Shown: positions 1,771 through 30,138 of the stretch, piece after piece
Layout: each line of letters opens with the position of its first letter
Numbering within the stretch: the first letter of the stretch is position 1
From: a virus
DNA: 62,278 nt
Virus record (IMG/VR): IMGVR_UViG_3300009184_000003
Coordinates: 1 to 62,278 of that record
Strand: one strand, 5' to 3'
Program-made: the position numbers and the translations under genes
The notes under the pieces: generated by a model
Told to the model about the DNA's origin: nothing
The model's database searches: none
What the model saw: only the letters and a program-made list of their open reading frames with translations

Positions 1771-3678
1771 ATGGATAAGGATACTCAAATAGTAGGTGGA
1801 CTCCCCGCCGGCACAGAAGAACCGTTACCTGGATCCAATAAAAAAGGCATAACGATTGCAGGCACGAAAGGCGTTTCTTTAGAACCAGAAAATAGTATGG
1901 AGGTTCGCAATCGTCTACTTGAATTGATTAGACAACGTGAGGCGGAGCGTTCAGGTTTCGGTGCGTTACTTGAGCGTTTGTCTATCTATAGTCCGAGCCC
2001 CAACACGTCGTTTCAGGAGCGTGTGGCCGGCTATGCTGATAAGCAACGTCAACGCGATCAAGACATATTCAACATGCAGTTGGGTGTATCGCAGTTGGAC
2101 ACTGAGACGGCGCGTCAGGCTCAAGAACGCGCTAAAATAGCTCAACGTAGGCAGGAGTTTGCACAGTCTATCGGTTTAGGCGGTCAAGGCGGTCAGGGCG
2201 GTCAGGGCGGTCAGGGCGGTCAGGGCGATGGTGGTGTCTCTCCGGCAAAGATGCAGCAAACATTTAACGCTCTCTCGCCTCAGCAGCAGCAGATATTGCG
2301 TAACATGCATGAGCAAAATCCTTTAGAAGCAGAAAAACAGTTAATCGCTTTAACTAAACGAACTGACCTGCAAAGAAACCTCGACTCCGCTGGACTTATA
2401 GAAGGTACAGACCCCTACAAAAACGCAATGTTAGCTCACTTGGCTTCTAACGCCGGTGACTATGTTGAGGTGCCTGATCCTGATAAACCAGGGTTTAACA
2501 AAACGGTGCCGAAAATAGAAGCTATTGGTAGCAACCTTGGCCTTTCACCGCAACAAACTTCAGTGGGTCCTTTGTCTTCTGTTGAATCAAAACCTCCTCA
2601 ATCTTCAGTATATGATAATTTAATATCCCGTGGTCCATTGCCTTCAGCAAAGGAATCGGCATCTGCAGCAGCACGCACAACAACGGCACCGGCACCGGCA
2701 CCTGCAGCAGCACGCACAACAACGGCACCGGCACCTGCAGCAGCACGCACAACAACGGCACCTGCAGCGGCACCTGTTAAAACCACAGTAGGTGGCGTAA
2801 CACTTACTAGCCCAAGGGCACTAGCCGAGCTAAATACAAAAAATCCATATCCTACATCCGATAAGAGATGGAGCGCATTTGAAGGTGATAGAGCAAAGGC
2901 AGCCCTTGATCTTGAGAAAGCGAGTAGAGAGGTACCTATTAAACTTGCAGAAGAGCAAGGCAGGGCTAGTATTGACGTCAATAAGCAAGCTCAGTTGGTG
3001 CCGATTGAAGGACAAAAGACAGAGTCTCAAGAGATGGGTAAAACAGACGCAGCCCAGCAGACTGCTCTTTCTGATTCAGTAGGACGAAATAGAGAAAATG
3101 TAATTTACTCTCATCGCATAAAGAGCACCATAGACAGCATACCTAAAGAAATGCAGAATGACCTCTTCGGTACATTAAATCAAGGTACGGTTAAATCGGC
3201 GGTGCTTAATTTTATTAGTAAAGGTATTAACACACCTTTTGGTTCATTGTCTGCACCAGCGTTTACTGATGTTGCAATTCAGACGACTCCAGCCGTTGTA
3301 AGAAATCAAAGAGCTGACGGATCAAACCCATTACTAGAAAAAAGGCAATTAGTATTATCAGACCTTGGAAGACTTACACTTGCGTTTACTGCGGTTGCCA
3401 ATAAAGGCCAAGGTGCAATTTCTGATAAAGAACGTGTCATGTATGCGGAGGCGATTGCTGATCCTAATCGTTCAACGGCAGGTATCATTAAACTTATGGC
3501 GCTCTCTGTTGAACTTGCTACGTCTCATGCTGAACAAACACAAGGTGCGTGGGAAAATGCAAAGAACGCAGGCCTGAGCTGGCGTGAATTTAAGGGAAGT
3601 ACGGAATATAAGAGAATGGTTGCTGACCAAATTAAAGAGTCTCAAGCGGCGCTCATTCCATATCGTAGAGCGAGATAA
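1771..3678 (+). CDS. Putative internal virion protein with GQG and Ala-Pro-Thr repeats, 635 aa
   Basis: ATG at 1771 follows a weak purine-rich ribosome site 11 bp after the previous stop. Residues about 137-152 are GGQ repeats and residues about 297-333 are Ala-Pro-Thr-Arg repeats, separating a charged N-terminal helical part from a C-terminal part of about 250 residues. The C-terminal part contains SDKERVMYAEAI, a pattern I associate with phage internal or ejection proteins, but I cannot assign an activity. It sits in the late plus-strand operon. Confidence 0.7.
   Translation: MDKDTQIVGGLPAGTEEPLPGSNKKGITIAGTKGVSLEPENSMEVRNRLLELIRQREAERSGFGALLERLSIYSPSPNTSFQERVAGYADKQRQRDQDIFNMQLGVSQLDTETARQAQERAKIAQRRQEFAQSIGLGGQGGQGGQGGQGGQGDGGVSPAKMQQTFNALSPQQQQILRNMHEQNPLEAEKQLIALTKRTDLQRNLDSAGLIEGTDPYKNAMLAHLASNAGDYVEVPDPDKPGFNKTVPKIEAIGSNLGLSPQQTSVGPLSSVESKPPQSSVYDNLISRGPLPSAKESASAAARTTTAPAPAPAAARTTTAPAPAAARTTTAPAAAPVKTTVGGVTLTSPRALAELNTKNPYPTSDKRWSAFEGDRAKAALDLEKASREVPIKLAEEQGRASIDVNKQAQLVPIEGQKTESQEMGKTDAAQQTALSDSVGRNRENVIYSHRIKSTIDSIPKEMQNDLFGTLNQGTVKSAVLNFISKGINTPFGSLSAPAFTDVAIQTTPAVVRNQRADGSNPLLEKRQLVLSDLGRLTLAFTAVANKGQGAISDKERVMYAEAIADPNRSTAGIIKLMALSVELATSHAEQTQGAWENAKNAGLSWREFKGSTEYKRMVADQIKESQAALIPYRRAR
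2179..2227 (+). repeat. 9-bp GGTCAGGGC tandem repeat
   Basis: About five copies of a 9-bp unit encoding Gly-Gly-Gln inside the 635-aa virion protein. It is probably a linker and is expected to vary in length between strains. Confidence 0.85.
2659..2769 (+). repeat. 30-36 bp imperfect repeat encoding AARTTTAPAPA
   Basis: Three consecutive copies of a unit containing GCAGCACGCACAACAACGG lie in the 635-aa protein. They encode a proline/alanine/threonine linker. Confidence 0.85.
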
Positions 3679-3708: not shown

Positions 3709-6117
3709 ATGGGCGCCGAAAATACAAAAACTTTTGAAGTACCTCAGTCTGCTCCAATACAAGAACTTGACATAGAGGATAACCAAACGGAGTCTGCTCC
3801 TTATACCGGACCACGTTTGCGTGACTCCCGTGACATGGCCGCGTTTGGTGTTGGTACTGCTGCGGGTTTTCTTGCTGATTCTATGCAAAGACACGAAATA
3901 CAAAAAAGAATAAATGATGAAAACAAAACCCAAGCAGACGCTGCGTACATGGCGCAGATGCGTATGGAATTGCAGAGGATGCAAGACGCTGAATATCGAC
4001 GGCAGATTGATGCGCGTAATGAATTAATACGTCAACAACAAGCGCAATATCAACAAGAATTAGAAGCACACGCGCAAGCGGTAGCTGAGGCTAAAGCTAA
4101 TGAGCCTAAGCTATACGGCACAGGCACACAAAATTGGACAGACCAAGAGTACGCCGAGAAAATTGCTCGTCAAATCGATGACCCGCTCAGTAAGGGTATC
4201 GCTTCAAAAGAGGCAGAAAAAAGAATAGCCATGCAGTTAAAGGCGGAAGAGTTGTTCCCAAGTCAAGTGTTAGCAGGTAAAGGTTCGTTATTGACTATAC
4301 CGCTTATCCCTGGCGGTCAAACAGAAGTGCCAATGAGTATGCGTAAGGAAAAACCTGAACCGGCGCCGCTACCACCACCACCAAGTAAACCAGTGCCGCC
4401 ACCAATACCGCAACGAACTCCTATTCCTGAGCCACAACCGCGTGCGCAAGCACCTGAGCTTCCAAGTAAAATGCACTCAGCTGGAAGCGGTTTGATGGGT
4501 GGTTTGGCTGGTGCGGATTTGTTTGACGCATATCAAAATTTTAGACAAGGAAATATAAGAGAGGGTCTTACAAGTGCAGGCACAGGGCTCTCAGCTGCCG
4601 CCGCTTCGTACCTTAAAAATCCTAAACTTAGAGCACTCTTGGCGGCGCCCTCTATTTTGTCAAAAGGTTCTGGTTTGCTGGACTACTTTAGTGCTGGCCA
4701 ACCAGAACAGAAAAAAGCTGAAGGCGGGATGATCCACATGGCGGGTGGTGGTCTTGCACCACACGGTATGCGTCACAGTGGCGAGGGTGCAAAGGGTAAG
4801 GGCTACTTTGGCATGATGCCAAGCCAAGATATCGGCGAGGGTCCAGTGGACTACTCACTGGCAGCACAGCCACGTTCATCCGAGCTATCATTGGAGTCTG
4901 ATGGTATGGGCGAGTACCCCTCGTTAGTGCCAGGGTTGACTAAAGAAGAGATGGATTACATGCTGGCCGGTAACGAGCCAACTGAAAGCATTTTACAAAA
5001 AGCCAAAATGCACGCGATGATGCGTAAAAAAAAAGGCTTGAGCCCCTTCGCACAACCTGATGAGTTGCGTTATCCAGTGCCCAACTACGCAGCCGGAGGG
5101 CTATCTGTAGCTCAGAACGTAGCAAAGGCAGCAGCACCTAGAGCAAAAGCGGCGTACAAATATGGGTCTCAACAAGCAGGTAAATTATCTGACTGGGCTC
5201 AAAATTTTATGGATCAATACCTTGTCCCCACTCAAGCAGATCGTATGGGTGGTGTAGGCGGTCCTAGCTTTAGTGCTAATCAACTAGGCTTACCACAATA
5301 TGCTGATGTTGCTTGGGGTTCTGGTAAACAAGGAATTGCAACTGGTATCGCTAATTTAGCAAAAGATCCGCGTTTTGGGGGAACACAAGGGCAGATTTTT
5401 ACACCATTACTGGGTGAAGAAAGCCAACTCCGGTCAAATCAACTTGTATATGATAAGTTGATGAAGGAGTTTTATAAAAACCAAGGTAAGATGACGCCAG
5501 AGTTAATGGCTAAAATTAATTTATTTATGCAAGCCGGAGGCCCTAAAGCCAGCGGTGAATTGCGTTTTGCACCAATTGAAAAGTTTGACCTTTCTGATCA
5601 AGATATGATGAAAGAGTTGGGTAAAACATTTAAGTCACGTAGAGATATTGTTACACATGCATTGGGTGGTGAAGGCCTTGGAGGCAAGAAATCACAAATT
5701 ATCCCTTATGACGATATATTAAAATCAATGCAAGACCCATTTACTGTGGGTGCTCCTACATACGCATTAGGCCCTCGTGCATTTAGATTGAGTGGTAAAG
5801 TGGGACAAGAACCACGCCCTGATTTAAACAAAGCGTATCCATATATTCTACACGGCCAAGATATGAACGTGACATTCACACCAACACCAGCTGAGTTGGC
5901 GTTGATGGACTTTCAAAACCAATGGCGTAAACAAACAGGTAATACCATGCCATTAAAAAGTGGCGCATTACCACAAGCCCAGTATTATGAACTCACCGCA
6001 GGCTATAAACCGGAAGGTTCATCAGAGCGGGTATACCCAAGACAGAAAATAACTGAGGAATGGATTAAAGAGCTGCAACGTAGTGGTTTTGCGCAAGGTG
6101 GCCTGGCATCACTCTAA
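3709..6117 (+). CDS. Large putative virion/ejection protein, 802 aa, last gene of the plus arm
   Basis: Residues about 60-140 form a Gln/Glu/Ala-rich probable coiled coil. Residues about 215-245 are proline-rich (PLPPPPSKP, PVPPPIPQ). Residues about 250-330 are Gly/Ala-rich and could interact with membrane. The motifs EGGMIHMAGGG, YAAGGLSVAQ and a terminal FAQGGLASL belong to a short FAxGG(L/M) signature shared with other proteins of this phage. The C-terminal 300 residues look like a folded domain that I do not recognise. Position after the other internal proteins suggests an ejected or polyvalent virion protein. A terminator follows directly. Confidence 0.7.
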   Translation: MGAENTKTFEVPQSAPIQELDIEDNQTESAPYTGPRLRDSRDMAAFGVGTAAGFLADSMQRHEIQKRINDENKTQADAAYMAQMRMELQRMQDAEYRRQIDARNELIRQQQAQYQQELEAHAQAVAEAKANEPKLYGTGTQNWTDQEYAEKIARQIDDPLSKGIASKEAEKRIAMQLKAEELFPSQVLAGKGSLLTIPLIPGGQTEVPMSMRKEKPEPAPLPPPPSKPVPPPIPQRTPIPEPQPRAQAPELPSKMHSAGSGLMGGLAGADLFDAYQNFRQGNIREGLTSAGTGLSAAAASYLKNPKLRALLAAPSILSKGSGLLDYFSAGQPEQKKAEGGMIHMAGGGLAPHGMRHSGEGAKGKGYFGMMPSQDIGEGPVDYSLAAQPRSSELSLESDGMGEYPSLVPGLTKEEMDYMLAGNEPTESILQKAKMHAMMRKKKGLSPFAQPDELRYPVPNYAAGGLSVAQNVAKAAAPRAKAAYKYGSQQAGKLSDWAQNFMDQYLVPTQADRMGGVGGPSFSANQLGLPQYADVAWGSGKQGIATGIANLAKDPRFGGTQGQIFTPLLGEESQLRSNQLVYDKLMKEFYKNQGKMTPELMAKINLFMQAGGPKASGELRFAPIEKFDLSDQDMMKELGKTFKSRRDIVTHALGGEGLGGKKSQIIPYDDILKSMQDPFTVGAPTYALGPRAFRLSGKVGQEPRPDLNKAYPYILHGQDMNVTFTPTPAELALMDFQNQWRKQTGNTMPLKSGALPQAQYYELTAGYKPEGSSERVYPRQKITEEWIKELQRSGFAQGGLASL

Positions 6118-6121
6118 TTTA

Positions 6122-6168
6122 GTGCGGGGAGGAAACGGACACAGAAGCCGCCTCCCCCACGCTTTTTT
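6122..6168 (+). terminator. Rho-independent terminator ending the plus-strand late arm
   Basis: A GTGCGGGGAGG / CCTCCCCCCAC stem (one bulged C, arms 6122-6132 and 6151-6160) is followed by six T at 6163-6168. It lies where the late arm meets the end of the convergent DNA polymerase gene. Confidence 0.85.
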
Positions 6169-23556: not shown

Positions 23557-23610
23557 GTTTTATTCCAGTAGGCCTTTGTATATTTAAAAGGCTATGTTAA
23601 AAGGGTGTAC

Positions 23611-23714
23611 GGCTGTTCAGGTTGTCGGGGTATGTTCACTCTATTTTATATTTTTAATTTTAAAAAATAAAAAATAAAAAATAAATAGAATAGACCCCGA
23701 CAACCTGAACAGCC
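23611..23714 (-). promoter_or_regulatory. Control element copy 1: 21-bp inverted repeat around a 62-bp AT-rich core
   Basis: Perfect arms GGCTGTTCAGGTTGTCGGGGT (23611-23631, 21 bp, first 20: GGCTGTTCAGGTTGTCGGGG) and its complement at 23694-23714. The 62-bp spacer is almost pure A/T. Homology to copy 2 (29030-29133, opposite orientation) continues through 23715-23753. It lies about 55 bp upstream of the sigma gene. Candidate promoter/operator or replication origin. Confidence 0.8.
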
Positions 23715-23764
23715 AGACAAAATCAATGACTTAGCTAACACTTTGTCAGGAACTTTACAAAATG

Positions 23765-24330: not shown

Positions 24331-24353
24331 ATATGGTCAAACGGCACCATTTA
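24331..24353 (-). repeat. Early 23-bp element, copy R1
   Basis: Minus-strand TAAATGGTGCCGTTTGACCA plus TAT. Begins at the stop codon of the gene upstream and lies 47 nt before the 24284 start. See the finding on the five-copy element. Confidence 0.85.
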
Positions 24354-24533
24354 AAAACCCATTAGCAAATAGATAATGACAAATATGAAACCGGCGATGC
24401 AAAAGCCAGTGACCATTGAGTCGGGGTCCAACCCACTGGACTCATTACCCTGCTGCGTGTGTATGGGGTTGGCCCAACTGTGGTAGGTGCACTCTTCACT
24501 GGTGCGGGGGGTTCTAAAATATGACTGTTTCAT
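24351..24533 (-). CDS. Small membrane protein, 60 aa
   Basis: A polar N-terminus with two Cys (MKQSYFRTPRTSEECTYHSW) and a C-terminal hydrophobic segment (TGFCIAGFIFVIIYLLMGF). Leader GGAGCACACC lies directly before ATG. Its stop is the first codon of repeat R1. Confidence 0.72.
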   Translation of the reverse strand: MKQSYFRTPRTSEECTYHSWANPIHTQQGNESSGLDPDSMVTGFCIAGFIFVIIYLLMGF

Positions 24534-24543
24534 GGTGTGCTCC

Positions 24544-24816
24544 TTAATTGTCGTAGTGGTCGATGTAGTTGGCGATTACACACAAGCAGCCTGCAATCAG
24601 GCCGTTTGATGCGTGATATTGTATGTCAGGCTCGCTCTCGTGCCAAGCCACAAAATTTTCAGGGAACAGCTCAGACTTGGCAAACTTGACCCTATGTTTC
24701 TGTAACAGGCGTAATCCTGGATCTGCCTCACTGGACCATGGTTGTGCCCATGTGCCTTCGATCACCGCGATGATGTAATCAAGCTTGCTCAATACTACTT
24801 TGTTATCGATTACCAT
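24544..24816 (-). CDS. Hypothetical protein, 90 aa
   Basis: Contains KLDYIIAVIEGTWAQPWSSE and a C-terminal hydrophobic patch (LIAGCLCVIANYI). GGAGAAGCAAG precedes the ATG, which overlaps the preceding gene by 7 nt. No family is recognised. Confidence 0.72.
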   Translation of the reverse strand: MVIDNKVVLSKLDYIIAVIEGTWAQPWSSEADPGLRLLQKHRVKFAKSELFPENFVAWHESEPDIQYHASNGLIAGCLCVIANYIDHYDN

Positions 24817-25214: not shown

Positions 25215-25478
25215 TTACCTTTCTGCCTTAGCGGCTTTTTCTCGTAGGTTTTCTTCAATGTAATTGCGGCAGTTGTCTGACATGCCTGCCTCGATGTCTG
25301 GTACTGCGTTGCCGTCCATGTCGTACAAGGACCATACGACTTCGGTGTATCCGTAGTAGTCCACGTCGCTGTCCCAACTGTTGCGGTTGGGCCTCTGGTG
25401 TGTGTAGTTGGTGCTGATTGCTTGGTACTCGGTACCGCACGGTGCTTCGTAATGCGCAACTATTGGTTCTTGTTTCAT
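25215..25478 (-). CDS. Hypothetical protein, 87 aa
   Basis: Tyr/Asp-rich (YGYTEVVWSLYDMDGNAVPD) with a basic helical end. GGAGCACACC leader precedes ATG. Repeat R2 lies 36 nt before the start. No family is recognised. Confidence 0.75.
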   Translation of the reverse strand: MKQEPIVAHYEAPCGTEYQAISTNYTHQRPNRNSWDSDVDYYGYTEVVWSLYDMDGNAVPDIEAGMSDNCRNYIEENLREKAAKAER

Positions 25479-25513
25479 GGTGTGCTCCTGTTGTGTTTGT
25501 GTGCACTACATAC

Positions 25514-25536
25514 ATATGGTCAAACGGCACCATTTA
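25514..25536 (-). repeat. Early 23-bp element, copy R2
   Basis: Identical core to R1. Its TAA is the stop codon of the 98-aa gene, and it lies 36 nt before the 25478 start. Confidence 0.85.
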
Positions 25537-26669: not shown

Positions 26670-26942
26670 TTATCTCCCCAGTGCTTTGTTGATATAGTCG
26701 TCAGCAAATATGCTGAAACCGCCGATGTTCCACTTTATTACGTCCTGTGGCTTGCAGCTCTGCTTCCAGTCATAGACGCTAACCACGGTGCCGTCAGCGA
26801 ACTTCAGGCGCCACTCTGCCTGCGTCTTGTAGTCGTCGCCGCGCTCTGGCTCACCGAAGGCATCTACTAGGTCCCAGTAGCTTGCCTCAATGTAACCCTG
26901 CAGTGATGTGCCGTCGGTGTTTGCGTGTGTTGTGAATTGCAT
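26670..26942 (-). CDS. Conserved phage protein, 90 aa
   Basis: TSLQGYIEASYWDLVDAFGE and KTQAEWRLKFADGTVVSVYD, then WNIGGFSIFADDYI, match a pattern widespread in phages (TSLQGY...FG.P..GD.YK...EW...F.DG....IYDWK). Function unknown. GGAGCACACC leader; R3 lies 42 nt before the start. Confidence 0.88.
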   Translation of the reverse strand: MQFTTHANTDGTSLQGYIEASYWDLVDAFGEPERGDDYKTQAEWRLKFADGTVVSVYDWKQSCKPQDVIKWNIGGFSIFADDYINKALGR

Positions 26943-26983
26943 GGTGTGCTCCTGTTATGGTTGTGAAGTTGTGCTGCATATAC

Positions 26984-27006
26984 ATATGGTCAAACGGCAC
27001 CATTTA
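26984..27006 (-). repeat. Early 23-bp element, copy R3
   Basis: Identical core to R1. Here the upstream gene is read in another phase and stops on the TGA inside the element (26990-26992). Confidence 0.85.
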
Positions 27007-27328
27007 GCTCTTCGATGAATTTTGTTGCGCTATCGATATCGCGGCGGATACCGCGAATGGTAATTTCCAATGCGATGCGGCTCACGCGCTTTTTACTGAC
27101 CAGTGCGAGCAGGTCGTCAGTGTAGTGCGAATTCAGTGCACCGTAAGCGATATGGGCTCCGGTCTTGGCGTTGCCTGCCTCGACCAGTGCATCGATCTGC
27201 GCGTCAGTGATTTTTTTCTGGGCCCAGATGCCGTTCTGATTGAAGCAGTGGAACAGTGCTCTTTCCTTGTTACTCCACCCGCGTTGTACTTCGGTTGCTG
27301 TATTCAGTATTTTGTCAATTTTGCTCAT
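26990..27328 (-). CDS. Hypothetical protein, 112 aa
   Basis: ATG at 27328 with GGAGCACACC leader (MSKIDKILNTATEVQRGWSN). Helical; includes KKITDAQIDALVEAGNAKTG and KKRVSRIALEITIRGIRRDI. It starts about 20 nt downstream of the first hammerhead-like element, so its transcript would begin with a ribozyme-made 5' end after cleavage. No family is recognised. Confidence 0.75.
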   Translation of the reverse strand: MSKIDKILNTATEVQRGWSNKERALFHCFNQNGIWAQKKITDAQIDALVEAGNAKTGAHIAYGALNSHYTDDLLALVSKKRVSRIALEITIRGIRRDIDSATKFIEELNGAV

Positions 27329-27347
27329 GGTGTGCTCCGTGGTTGTT

Positions 27348-27399
27348 GGTCTCATCAGTGGCAGCCTGACTGCCAGACCGGCTCACGCCGGTTTCGACC
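27348..27399 (-). ncRNA. Type II hammerhead ribozyme, copy 1
   Basis: Minus strand, 5' to 3': GGTC, then GAAA (core), CCGGC-GTGA-GCCGG (stem III with a GNRA loop), TC (U16.1-C17), TGGCAG-TCAGG-CTGCCA (stem I), CTGATGA (core), GACC. Stem II is the open GGTC/GACC pairing. Every invariant core position is present. The predicted cut is after C17, between 27376 and 27375. The element abuts the TAA of the 75-aa gene. Confidence 0.92.
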
Positions 27400-27627
27400 T
27401 TATTTGAACAGGGCCAGTAGCTGCTCGGTGCCTGCCTCCCTAGTAGCAGGCAGGTCAGAGCGCCACAGGTCCGCCGAGTTGCGCAGGTTGCTAATAATGT
27501 ATAGCAGTGCCGCTGCGTTCGTGCGGTCCTTGGAACCGGCAGGCGACAGCGTGATAGCGATGGTGTTAAGCTTCTCGGCTGTGTCTTCAATGCTGCACAG
27601 GTCTTTGTATGTGAATAGTGGGCTCAT
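27400..27627 (-). CDS. Hypothetical protein, 75 aa, between two hammerhead ribozymes
   Basis: ATG at 27627 with AGGAGAATTACA upstream. Reads MSPLFTYKDLCSIEDTAEKL..., helical, with NAAALLYIISNLRNSADLW. Its TAA is immediately followed by ribozyme copy 1, and copy 2 lies 27 nt upstream of its ATG. Self-cleavage at both would release a 306-nt RNA (27681-27376) with this gene alone. Function unknown. Confidence 0.8.
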   Translation of the reverse strand: MSPLFTYKDLCSIEDTAEKLNTIAITLSPAGSKDRTNAAALLYIISNLRNSADLWRSDLPATREAGTEQLLALFK

Positions 27628-27653
27628 TGTAATTCTCCTATGGTGTGTGTATT

Positions 27654-27705
27654 GGTCTCATCAGCACTGGCCTAACCAGTGGACCGGCTCACGCCGGTTT
27701 CGACC
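27654..27705 (-). ncRNA. Type II hammerhead ribozyme, copy 2
   Basis: Minus strand, 5' to 3': GGTC, GAAA, CCGGC-GTGA-GCCGG, TC, CACTGG-TTAGG-CCAGTG (stem I), CTGATGA, GACC. The core and stems II and III equal copy 1, while stem I has a wholly different sequence with all six pairs kept. This compensated divergence supports a conserved RNA fold. The predicted cut is between 27682 and 27681. A TAA codon abuts it, as in copy 1. Confidence 0.92.
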
Positions 27706-27756
27706 TTACTTTTTTAAAGACTCTGCTGTTAACCCTTGAGCTAATTATTTATTCAT
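27706..27756 (-). pseudogene. Remnant mini-gene MNK-stop-LAQGLTAESLKK-stop
   Basis: ATG at 27756 carries the GGAGCACACC leader, but the fourth codon is TAA. The same frame then reads LAQGLTAESLKK and a TAA that abuts ribozyme copy 2. It may be a gene reduced to its two ends, or the match may be chance. Confidence 0.35.
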
Positions 27757-27976
27757 GGTGTGCTCCTATGATCTGGTTCCTGCCGCCGCCCTCGCCTGTC
27801 AGCCAGTCGTAGAGGTCGAATGCGTCCTTGTAGTAGATCTCCTGCTTGACCACTGGCTCGTACTCGCCGAACGCTGTCTCGAGTTTCTGGAGCACTTCCT
27901 TTTTAGTCTTACCAATGATGCTGTAAGTCTCACTGTCATCGGTGCGAACTGCAATCCATACTGTTAGCTTTGCCAT
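27749..27976 (-). CDS. Hypothetical protein, 75 aa
   Basis: ATG at 27976 with AGGAGAATCACC upstream. MAKLTVWIAVRTDDSETYSI, KKEVLQKLETAFGEYEPVVK and DAFDLYDWLTGEGGG are familiar from small phage proteins of unknown function. The last codons run through the GGAGCACACCATGAA leader of the next start. R4 lies 43 nt upstream. Confidence 0.8.
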   Translation of the reverse strand: MAKLTVWIAVRTDDSETYSIIGKTKKEVLQKLETAFGEYEPVVKQEIYYKDAFDLYDWLTGEGGGRNQIIGAHHE

Positions 27977-28018: not shown

Positions 28019-28041
28019 ATATGGTCAAACGGCACCATTTA
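28019..28041 (-). repeat. Early 23-bp element, copy R4
   Basis: Identical core to R1. Its TAA is the stop codon of the 110-aa gene, and it lies 43 nt before the 27976 start. Confidence 0.85.
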
Positions 28042-28371
28042 GAACTTGATGAAGTAGGCAGGATCGAATCCGCCCCACTGCGCTGCGCGCTGTCCTACCA
28101 GTGCACCGACGCGCTGCTCTGGTGTGTAGACTGCTACGCAGTCCTGCTCCAGTATGTCGCTGATAGCAAGCGCTTCAGCATACACACGCTTCGGTGCTGT
28201 CTGGAACGCTGCGACAAGTGTCTGCTCTGTAGCTGACTGCTCGATCCTATACTCCACGAAGGCGAAGCGGCTGCGCAGTAGTACCAGTGCATACTCAGCG
28301 CGCGCTGTTAGCTGCTCTGGTGTGCTGGTTGTGTTGGGTACTTCTAAACCGATGTTAATTTGGTATTGCAT
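28039..28371 (-). CDS. Hypothetical protein, 110 aa, first gene of the minus arm
   Basis: Begins MQYQINIGLEVPNTTSTPEQ, with EYALVLLRSRFAFVEYRIEQ and a C-terminal PEQRVGALVGQRAAQWGGFD. GGAGCACACC leader precedes ATG, and R5 lies 37 nt upstream. No function is recognised. As the first gene after the divergent region it should be expressed earliest. Confidence 0.78.
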   Translation of the reverse strand: MQYQINIGLEVPNTTSTPEQLTARAEYALVLLRSRFAFVEYRIEQSATEQTLVAAFQTAPKRVYAEALAISDILEQDCVAVYTPEQRVGALVGQRAAQWGGFDPAYFIKF

Positions 28372-28407
28372 GGTGTGCTCCTAGGTTGTTTATCAGGTCT
28401 TACATAT

Positions 28408-28430
28408 GTATGGTCAAACGGCACCATTTA
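28408..28430 (-). repeat. Early 23-bp element, copy R5
   Basis: Same core as R1-R4 with one difference at the distal edge. This copy follows no gene, which suggests a promoter or RNA-processing role for the element. Confidence 0.85.
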
Positions 28431-28819: not shown

Positions 28820-29029
28820 AGACCGGCGGCTTGTTAATTAGGCAACACCCCGATTTGGGTCCCATCGGCGGGGCGGCTAGGGGGGCCCCCACAGAAAGCA
28901 AGTTTTTTACAAACGCCCAGTTTACAAAAAAGCACTTGCCTAATTTTTTTTTTATAATTTTTACAACACACTAAGTTGTTAATATGTTAAGTTCCTGACA
29001 AAAGTTGCGCTAAGTCCTTGATTTTGTCT

Positions 29030-29133
29030 GGCTGTTCAAGTTGTCGGGGTCTATTCTATTTATTTTATTTTTTTAATTCAACGCGAAAAAAATATCTATA
29101 AAGAGCAAACATACCCCGACAACCTGAACACCC
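29030..29133 (+). promoter_or_regulatory. Control element copy 2: 21-bp inverted repeat around a 62-bp AT-rich core
   Basis: Arms GGCTGTTCAAGTTGTCGGGG(T) at 29030-29050 and ACCCCGACAACCTGAACACC(C) at 29113-29133, each one base different from copy 1, with the same 62-bp spacing. Upstream homology with copy 1 covers 28989-29029. It faces the late plus-strand arm as copy 1 faces the sigma gene. A TATAAA box at about 29097 lies beside the right arm. Confidence 0.8.
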
Positions 29134-29231
29134 AGACTGTGCTTGGGTATATTTTGCTCTGGTTTGAAATAAATGCAATAGTTGGCGTCTAGCGTGAGTT
29201 ACTGCTATTTGGGCGTAATCGGGTGAATAAA

Positions 29232-29250: not shown

Positions 29251-30138
29251 ATGGGAATAGACGCGCGACTCCCATTGCCTACGACAGCCGGATGGCTGCC
29301 AGCTGGACAACTCCAGGCAGGCGATGTGGTATTCAGTTACACAGGGTATCCAGTTAAGGTCGTTTCGATCCAGAGATATACGCCGGCGGCGTGTTATAAG
29401 ATCTGGCTCAAAGACGGGCTGACACTGGTGGTAGACGCACGCACTGGAATTCCTGTGTTTGACCGCAAGGCTAGGAACCAGCTGCATTTGTGGACGCGCA
29501 CCACTTACCGCCACGAAGACTCGTATGTCCAACCACTAAGTCCTGAGGCCATCCTCACATGGGAATTTGGTTGGTGCAGGATCCCAGTCTGCCAACCGCT
29601 ACGACCCCCGCACAGAAGCCTACCCGTTGAGCCGTATGAGTTTGCGCGCTGGATGTTTGACCGCAGCGAGAAACGCCGGCGCAATCGAACTGACATCACC
29701 CGCGAACTGATCGAGCGGTATCCTACCATTCCAACCCACATACCCGAAGAGTATTTGTTTGCGTCGTTTGAACAACGACTGGCGTTCTTGCGCGGTATCC
29801 TGAGCGTTAGAACCAAGGCCTTTAGCAAAAGCAATTGTCTTTTCAAAATAGATGTGGCCGACAGGCGGCTGGCTCGGCAAATACAGGGGCTGGTCGAATC
29901 GTTTGGGATTAAGACGTACATTGTCAACGCAAGAACAAACTACCGGTTTAGGGTTTGTTTCAAAACCATACTGCGGCTGTGCGAGGACCAAGACATCCCT
30001 AAGAATGTTAACGAGCTGGAATATCGGCGGATTATGCAAATTGAAAAGATAGCACCAAGAGAGTGCGTGTACATTAAAACGGATGACCCCAACAACACAA
30101 TTTTGGTAAGCGAAGGCTACCTAGGAGTTTCATTATGA
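29251..30138 (+). CDS. Free-standing Hint/intein-like protein with LAGLIDADG-like domain
   Basis: 295 aa. The N-terminus (LPTTAGWLPAGQLQAGDVVF, SYTGYPVKVVSIQ) is the start of a Hint/intein fold, and residues 65-71 (TLVVDAR) mark block B. The C-terminus (ECVYIKTDDPNNTILVSEGY) matches block F but ends LGVSL without the final His-Asn. The first Cys and the block-B His are also absent, so splicing is unlikely. A middle segment (RLAFLRGILSVRTKAF) resembles a degenerate LAGLIDADG endonuclease. Its TGA overlaps the TerL ATG. No good ribosome site precedes ATG 29251, so the start is uncertain. Confidence 0.75.
   Translation: MGIDARLPLPTTAGWLPAGQLQAGDVVFSYTGYPVKVVSIQRYTPAACYKIWLKDGLTLVVDARTGIPVFDRKARNQLHLWTRTTYRHEDSYVQPLSPEAILTWEFGWCRIPVCQPLRPPHRSLPVEPYEFARWMFDRSEKRRRNRTDITRELIERYPTIPTHIPEEYLFASFEQRLAFLRGILSVRTKAFSKSNCLFKIDVADRRLARQIQGLVESFGIKTYIVNARTNYRFRVCFKTILRLCEDQDIPKNVNELEYRRIMQIEKIAPRECVYIKTDDPNNTILVSEGYLGVSL

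Follow-up and report, generated by a model that had tools for sequence, protein, structure and literature searches.

Two type II hammerhead ribozymes on the minus strand of a virus DNA of 62,278 nucleotides from IMG/VR (the window, taken at its whole length) bracket a single 75-codon gene, and they are probably active, cis-cleaving elements that punctuate a polycistronic early phage transcript into single-gene pieces. This reading builds on the presence, structure, covariation and placement of the ribozymes, all of which were observed directly, in the window and in a survey of other contigs.

Two ribozymes and the gene between them

Copy A occupies positions 27654..27705 and copy B positions 27348..27399, both on the minus strand, and on reading of the sequence each of these 52-nt elements fits the hammerhead at every core position and in every pair. 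The order of elements in both copies is GGTC / GAAA / CCGGC-GTGA-GCCGG / T C17 / stem I hairpin / CTGATGA / GACC, where GGTC and GACC are the 3' and 5' strands of stem II, the CCGGC-GTGA-GCCGG hairpin is stem III, and the stem I hairpin of 17 nt is found between T16.1 C17 and CTGATGA. Where the hammerhead core calls for CUGANGA, GAAA, an A15.1-U16.1 pair and H17, both copies have CTGATGA, GAAA, A-U and C17. As evidenced by the MFE and centroid structures of each isolated 52-mer, stems I and III are closed and stem II is open, and re-reading and folding thus confirm the sequences, the coordinates, the full core and the state of the three stems given in the original prediction. The compensated divergence of stem I described there was equally borne out, with CACTGG/CCAGTG and the loop UUAGG in copy A, TGGCAG/CTGCCA and the loop UCAGG in copy B, and 6 of 6 pairs kept. 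A core scan requiring a paired stem II returned only copies A and B as type II elements from the whole window, and a structural finder that evaluates core and structure located the same two elements in the window and none in 1.17 Mb of shuffled sequence. The copies are confirmed as genuine type II hammerheads, an identity well supported by sequence, covariation and context, and their sequences predict self-cleavage of both in this phage, between 27682 (C17) and 27681 in copy A and between 27376 (C17) and 27375 in copy B.

The bracketed gene (27400..27627, minus strand) is the single 75-codon reading frame that had been described between the two copies, and is preceded by a Shine-Dalgarno site, AGGAG, at 27639-27635. 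Its product matches no PHROG or Pfam family, and its sole relative found in viral contigs is in L122, a contig of the same virus species with 99.96% identity over 12.2 kb. As the genes bracketed elsewhere are diverse as well, we rejected the idea of a conserved function for this gene. The next gene upstream (27749..27976, minus strand, stop codon at 27751-27749) likewise has 75 codons and belongs to no known family. Beside copy A are twelve sense codons (LAQGLTAESLKK) plus TAA (27706..27744, minus strand) that have no start codon of their own and are possibly the 3' remnant of a replaced gene. Both ribozymes had been said to follow a TAA codon directly. In copy B this codon is the stop of the bracketed gene, whereas at copy A the TAA (27708-27706) closes the startless 12-codon frame and does not terminate the upstream gene. 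The downstream gene (26990..27328, minus strand) encodes 112 amino acids from its likely start, ATG 27328, with the Shine-Dalgarno site CGGAG at 27339-27335. The formal start of a longer reading frame (26990-27355), ATG 27355, is inside the CTGATGA core of copy B; the true start is likely ATG 27328, judging from the CGGAG upstream of it.

The C17 positions predict an excised single-gene RNA of 306 nt (27376..27681, minus strand), in agreement with the product first proposed. It would consist of a 5'-hydroxyl, the stem I hairpin of copy A, the gene, the stem III hairpin of copy B and a 2',3'-cyclic phosphate, and its excision as the message of one gene, although predicted, is well supported by sequence, covariation and context.

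The window, from a tailed phage, encodes a terminase, a primase, a helicase, an exonuclease, a ribonucleotide reductase and a DNA polymerase, and the ribozyme pair sits among small genes that run leftward. When this region was scanned for promoters and terminators, matches were no more frequent than in shuffled sequence, and the segment 22000-29500 of the window has no nucleotide relatives among annotated phages. A near-identical start box, AGGAGCACACCATG, is common to many of the small genes, e.g. at 24527-24544, 25472-25489, 26936-26953 and 28365-28382 (minus strand). In addition, the same operon contains five exact minus-strand copies of ATGGTGCCGTTTGACCAT (24333-24350, 25516-25533, 26986-27003, 28021-28038 and 28410-28427), for which the expected count is 0.12 with up to 3 mismatches. 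Each is found right after a TAA and is followed by a Shine-Dalgarno site and ATG, the same slot that the hammerheads occupy. In the sister phage L119 two copies are exact and a third, at 3060, has GTGGT..ACCAC; this compensated change of the outer pair suggests an RNA hairpin or a palindromic site. Long inverted repeats (94 nt, 88%) and AT-rich palindromes (23606-23719, and 23666-23759 with 28985-29078, and 29026-29137) flank the small-gene region and perhaps take part in transcription termination or replication. Note also a plus-strand reading frame adjoining the terminase gene (29251-30138) that gives a weak LAGLIDADG match below the cut-off (E 0.004).

A pseudoknot-free class of type II hammerheads

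We surveyed viral contigs with a degenerate type II pattern and with a second pattern for the form with a 4-bp stem II. Each returned at least 120 matching stretches, and the total came to at least 345 type II hammerheads in at least 222 loci that are only partly independent; 9 among the matches listed were from bacterial genome contigs. The patterns required the core, and ORFs were called mechanically. Stems I and III are formed by 93% and 98% of the unique pattern matches, compared to 0.2-0.3% after shuffling of the unspecified bases, and the structure is therefore not imposed by the search.

The length of the stem I hairpin is bimodal. Among the matches listed in the first scan it is either 17 nt (63 unique elements) or 20-24 nt (99), with almost none between. 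In the 17-nt class stem II is 4 bp long in 61 of 63 cases and the loop is a UNANG pentaloop, where the first base is U in 189 of 191, the third A in 144 and the fifth G in 151, and an A is found directly 5' of stem II in 189 of 190. Neither the pentaloop bases nor the A flanking stem II were fixed by the survey patterns. A pseudoknot between loop I and the 3' tail is reported for the majority of type II hammerheads, not for all, and is typical rather than defining. The long-loop class combines a 3-bp stem II with the pseudoknot of Perreault et al., and complementarity of at least 4 pairs between loop I and tail is present in 94% of its members vs 28% of controls. For the pentaloop class the corresponding value is 11.6%, with no excess over the 10.8% in swapped controls. 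By its UNANG loop, its 4-bp stem II and the lack of a pseudoknot the window pair is assigned to the pentaloop class; a loop I-3' tail pseudoknot was considered for it and rejected, since its class shows no excess complementarity. The pentaloop class may already have been described, as Perreault et al. (2011, PMC3088659) note that many hammerheads are without the pseudoknot and may use other contacts.

An alignment of 46 diverse sequences of the class shows standard pairing in 99.9% of pair cells. Its covariation score is 0.788, compared to 0.150 in shuffled alignments and about 0.10 at most when slid, and 0 of 500 shuffles reach the score. Compensatory change, with both sides altered, is seen in 13 of the 16 pairs; the alignment pairs 4-51, 5-50, 9-24 and 10-23 are fixed by the search pattern and should be discounted as evidence for covariation.

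The class difference also accounts for the outcome of the database search. Against the Rfam model Hammerhead_II (RF02276) each copy scored 30.1 bits over the full model length, short of the gathering score of 37, and the whole window has no match at the gathering threshold. The check proposed with the original prediction, a score above this threshold, is in a literal sense negative, but in the loci tested the threshold misses the whole structural class, and in 11 such loci it was passed by long-loop elements only. A covariance model (R2) that we built on 44 elements from other contigs, with this phage excluded, gave 73.2 bits for copy A and 72.9 bits for copy B, with E about 3e-19 and no further match in the window. 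A hammerhead-like sequence that arose by chance or has decayed and lost its activity might likewise score under the Rfam cut-off. With that E-value reached twice, no such element in shuffled sequence, a stem I replaced between the copies with all pairs kept, and the same position and class recurring in many contigs, the probability of this explanation is practically negligible.

Placement between genes and proposed processing of the message

Among the matches listed, 67.4% of the hammerheads have a stop codon at most 12 nt from their 5' end and also, 6-45 nt past their 3' end, a Shine-Dalgarno site with ATG. The same placement is found at 1.6% of random same-strand positions and at 0% on the antisense strand, and once identical elements are removed, each of the two structural classes gives 68%. 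Also among the matches listed, C17 is a C in 342 of 345 elements, all copies are on one strand in 64 of 64 multi-copy loci, and 75 of 117 pairs within 1500 nt bracket exactly one ORF that spans the interval. The 69 distinct ORFs bracketed in these matches contain one homologous pair only, and the conserved feature is therefore the position between genes rather than a gene. The few known families represented include ArdA, superinfection exclusion, anti-restriction, DUF932, SSB-like and RusA-like proteins. The arrays can be long: the contig L144 has seven one-gene units, and in four phages each record gives 8-10 model matches. Type II elements outnumber candidate types I/III by 345 to 5 among the matches listed, a dominance biased by the type II pattern with which the survey was seeded. 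A convincing type III hammerhead does occur on the minus strand of L144, near position 500, beside a run of type II elements, and this phage thus has mixed topologies. In another surveyed contig, L031, an odd Rfam tmRNA match of only 66 nt (6081-6146, minus strand) was reported over the whole model with 53.6 bits.

A cut between hairpins, set between a stop codon and an intact ribosome-binding site, a uniform orientation and unrelated genes together indicate a general segmentation of mRNA. In the proposed mechanism, each ribozyme would act from the gap between the stop codon of one gene and the Shine-Dalgarno site of the next, and the nascent RNA would be cut after C17. With stems I and III as the closed ones, the cut would fall between two hairpins. 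The upstream piece would then finish with stem III and one further nucleotide bearing a 2',3'-cyclic phosphate, and the downstream piece would open with a 5'-hydroxyl and stem I. Among the RNA decay enzymes, RppH and RNase E detect phosphates at the 5' end, and 3' exonucleases require an end that is single-stranded. From these requirements we infer that the new ends should resist 3' exonucleases as well as enzymes that depend on a phosphate or triphosphate at the 5' end (RppH, 5' sensing by RNase E). Two cuts would provide the 75-codon gene with an mRNA of its own, and uncouple its stability and translation from those of its neighbours. The benefit for which the ribozymes were selected may be this protection of the ends or this uncoupling, a weaker claim than the processing itself.

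Some of the folding results complicate this picture. When the whole 306-nt product is folded thermodynamically, its stem I re-pairs with the coding sequence (stem I P about 0.09). In the first 45 nt of the excised RNA taken alone it does form, so that the 5' hairpin and the protection it provides may depend on co-transcriptional folding. In the fold of a 601-nt precursor, stem III of copy B is mostly mispaired unless the pairing distance is limited. A stem I buried in the free product would also suit a role in down-regulation, in which exposed ends speed the decay of upstream or downstream messages and so lower the expression of particular genes, and intergenic cleavage that strips the 5' triphosphate and separates leaders could work in the same direction. 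Such a role is unlikely, however, as the ribozyme is found directly after the stop codon with the Shine-Dalgarno site and ATG intact in most cases, and as the new ends in type II are hairpin segments.

The predicted ends also bear on a third possible fate of the excised RNA. A 5'-hydroxyl and a 2',3'-cyclic phosphate suit reversal of the hammerhead reaction or ligation by RtcB, and the product might persist as a stable circular mRNA of 306 nt, its ends joined by a hybrid hammerhead or by host RtcB. Such a hybrid would be complete in this pair: copy A would contribute its 5' half, made up of stem I, CTGATGA and GACC, copy B would contribute its 3' half with GGTC, GAAA and stem III, and stem II (GGTC/GACC) is identical in both copies. 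Among the matches listed elsewhere, however, stem II differs in 28 of 117 neighbouring pairs and 23 hybrids retain 1-2 pairs only, so that the ability to close a circle is not conserved in general; joint conservation of stem II in the two members of a pair, considered as a sign of circles, was not found as a general feature. Neither circular nor spliced products were detected when Perreault et al. (2011, PMC3088659) searched for them in their arrays. The ligatable circle envisaged in the original prediction thus stands as far as its chemistry and the complete hybrid core in this phage are concerned, but not as a general feature of such pairs or of the published arrays. Circles from the present pair are possible, but they are unsupported, and as an account of its function we consider them quite unlikely and do not favour them over the release of linear messages.

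The sister phage L119, with 86-90% identity wherever it aligns, carries just one ribozyme in the corresponding position, and this ribozyme combines a stem I like that of copy A with a downstream flank like that of copy B. Neither of its neighbouring genes is related to those in the window, and only the segments from stop codon to ATG are similar there; gene cassettes were evidently exchanged at the ribozyme-bearing borders, as these alignments suggest. The distant terminase-related phages MW202545 and Caulobacter phage RW contain no ribozymes, and with one in L119 and none in these two the pair is not essential to the lineage. The elements could accordingly be seen mainly as recombination joints, cassette borders for the swapping of small accessory genes, with a cleavage role that is secondary or has vanished. 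In line with this, homology breaks at 77% of hammerhead gaps compared to 56% of other gaps, and at 65-80% identity the counts are 42 of 42 vs 95 of 143. At 80-95% identity there is no difference (20 of 28 vs 86 of 119), the matches are not independent, and breaks at gene borders are common in phages. The excess is in part an alignment effect, because the conserved core extends alignments across the gap, and with the effect this modest we rejected the idea that recombination prefers the ribozymes as joints. Compensatory changes and core conservation moreover demand a function at the RNA level, and a mainly recombinational role is in our view very improbable.

With cleavage of a polycistronic message retained as the preferred function, the question arises how far it extends. 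A distinct and widespread pseudoknot-free type II class, with a 6-bp stem I, a UNANG pentaloop and a 4-bp stem II flanked by conserved As, and below the Rfam cut-off, may constitute a general punctuation in many phages that converts polycistronic early transcripts into end-protected single-gene mRNAs. The tertiary contact in this class might be the canonical non-Watson-Crick one between loop I and stem II, with the flanking As in place of loop II. We regard this wider proposal as plausible, if a little short of probable. If it is true, catalysis by RNA belongs to the normal course of mRNA maturation in many phages and is not a curiosity.

Relation to known hammerhead arrays

A pair of hammerheads bracketing one phage gene was initially thought to be undescribed, and this is incorrect. 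In prophages, Perreault et al. (2011, PMC3088659) had found several hammerheads set around single genes or short blocks, and they inferred the processing of long phage transcripts into single-gene mRNAs; three of their arrays cleave in vitro and one, from Agrobacterium, in E. coli. A review of 2017 (PMC6155905) states that such motifs flank small ORFs, and a publication of 2023 (PMC10085705) calls the reason for the clustering of hammerheads near particular genes and near each other unknown. The present case resembles the arrays of Perreault et al. in having at least two hammerheads around one phage gene, with type II among theirs, and differs in the phage, in the gene and in the lack of a loop I-tail pseudoknot in the window pair. 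The spacing of stop codon, ribozyme and Shine-Dalgarno site measured in our survey is not tabulated in the running text of PMC3088659. What we add is a quantified rule of placement, the clean division into two structural classes, one of which falls below the Rfam cut-off, and arrays in cultured Streptomyces phages. Placement is thereby made concrete as the gap between stop codon and ribosome-binding site, in uniform orientation and around unrelated genes. With the Rfam family RF02276 the window pair shares the type II topology, the full core and the closed stems I and III, but unlike the elements that pass its cut-off, which are of the longer-loop class, it belongs to the class with a 5-nt UNANG loop and a 4-bp stem II. 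A standard database threshold thus overlooks a large structural class.

The Streptomyces phages Tefunt, Diane and Salutena each contain 7-10 model matches per genome, on one strand and between small genes, and the stretches viewed have no ribozyme annotation. Their type II arrays are like the window pair in strand and position, but mostly have longer stem I loops and a GGC/GCC stem II, and they come from cultured phages, in which the processing hypothesis is directly testable. In Tefunt (L233, 2617-2673) the annotated CDS gp75 starts inside a hammerhead, and this start is therefore probably misannotated. A more distant parallel is provided by retrozymes and viroid-like circular RNAs, in which direct-repeat hammerheads delimit a unit of a few hundred nucleotides (PMC7761336). 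Those ribozymes are of type I or III and their units are mostly non-coding and accumulate as circles, whereas the unit in the window is delimited by type II ribozymes and is coding.
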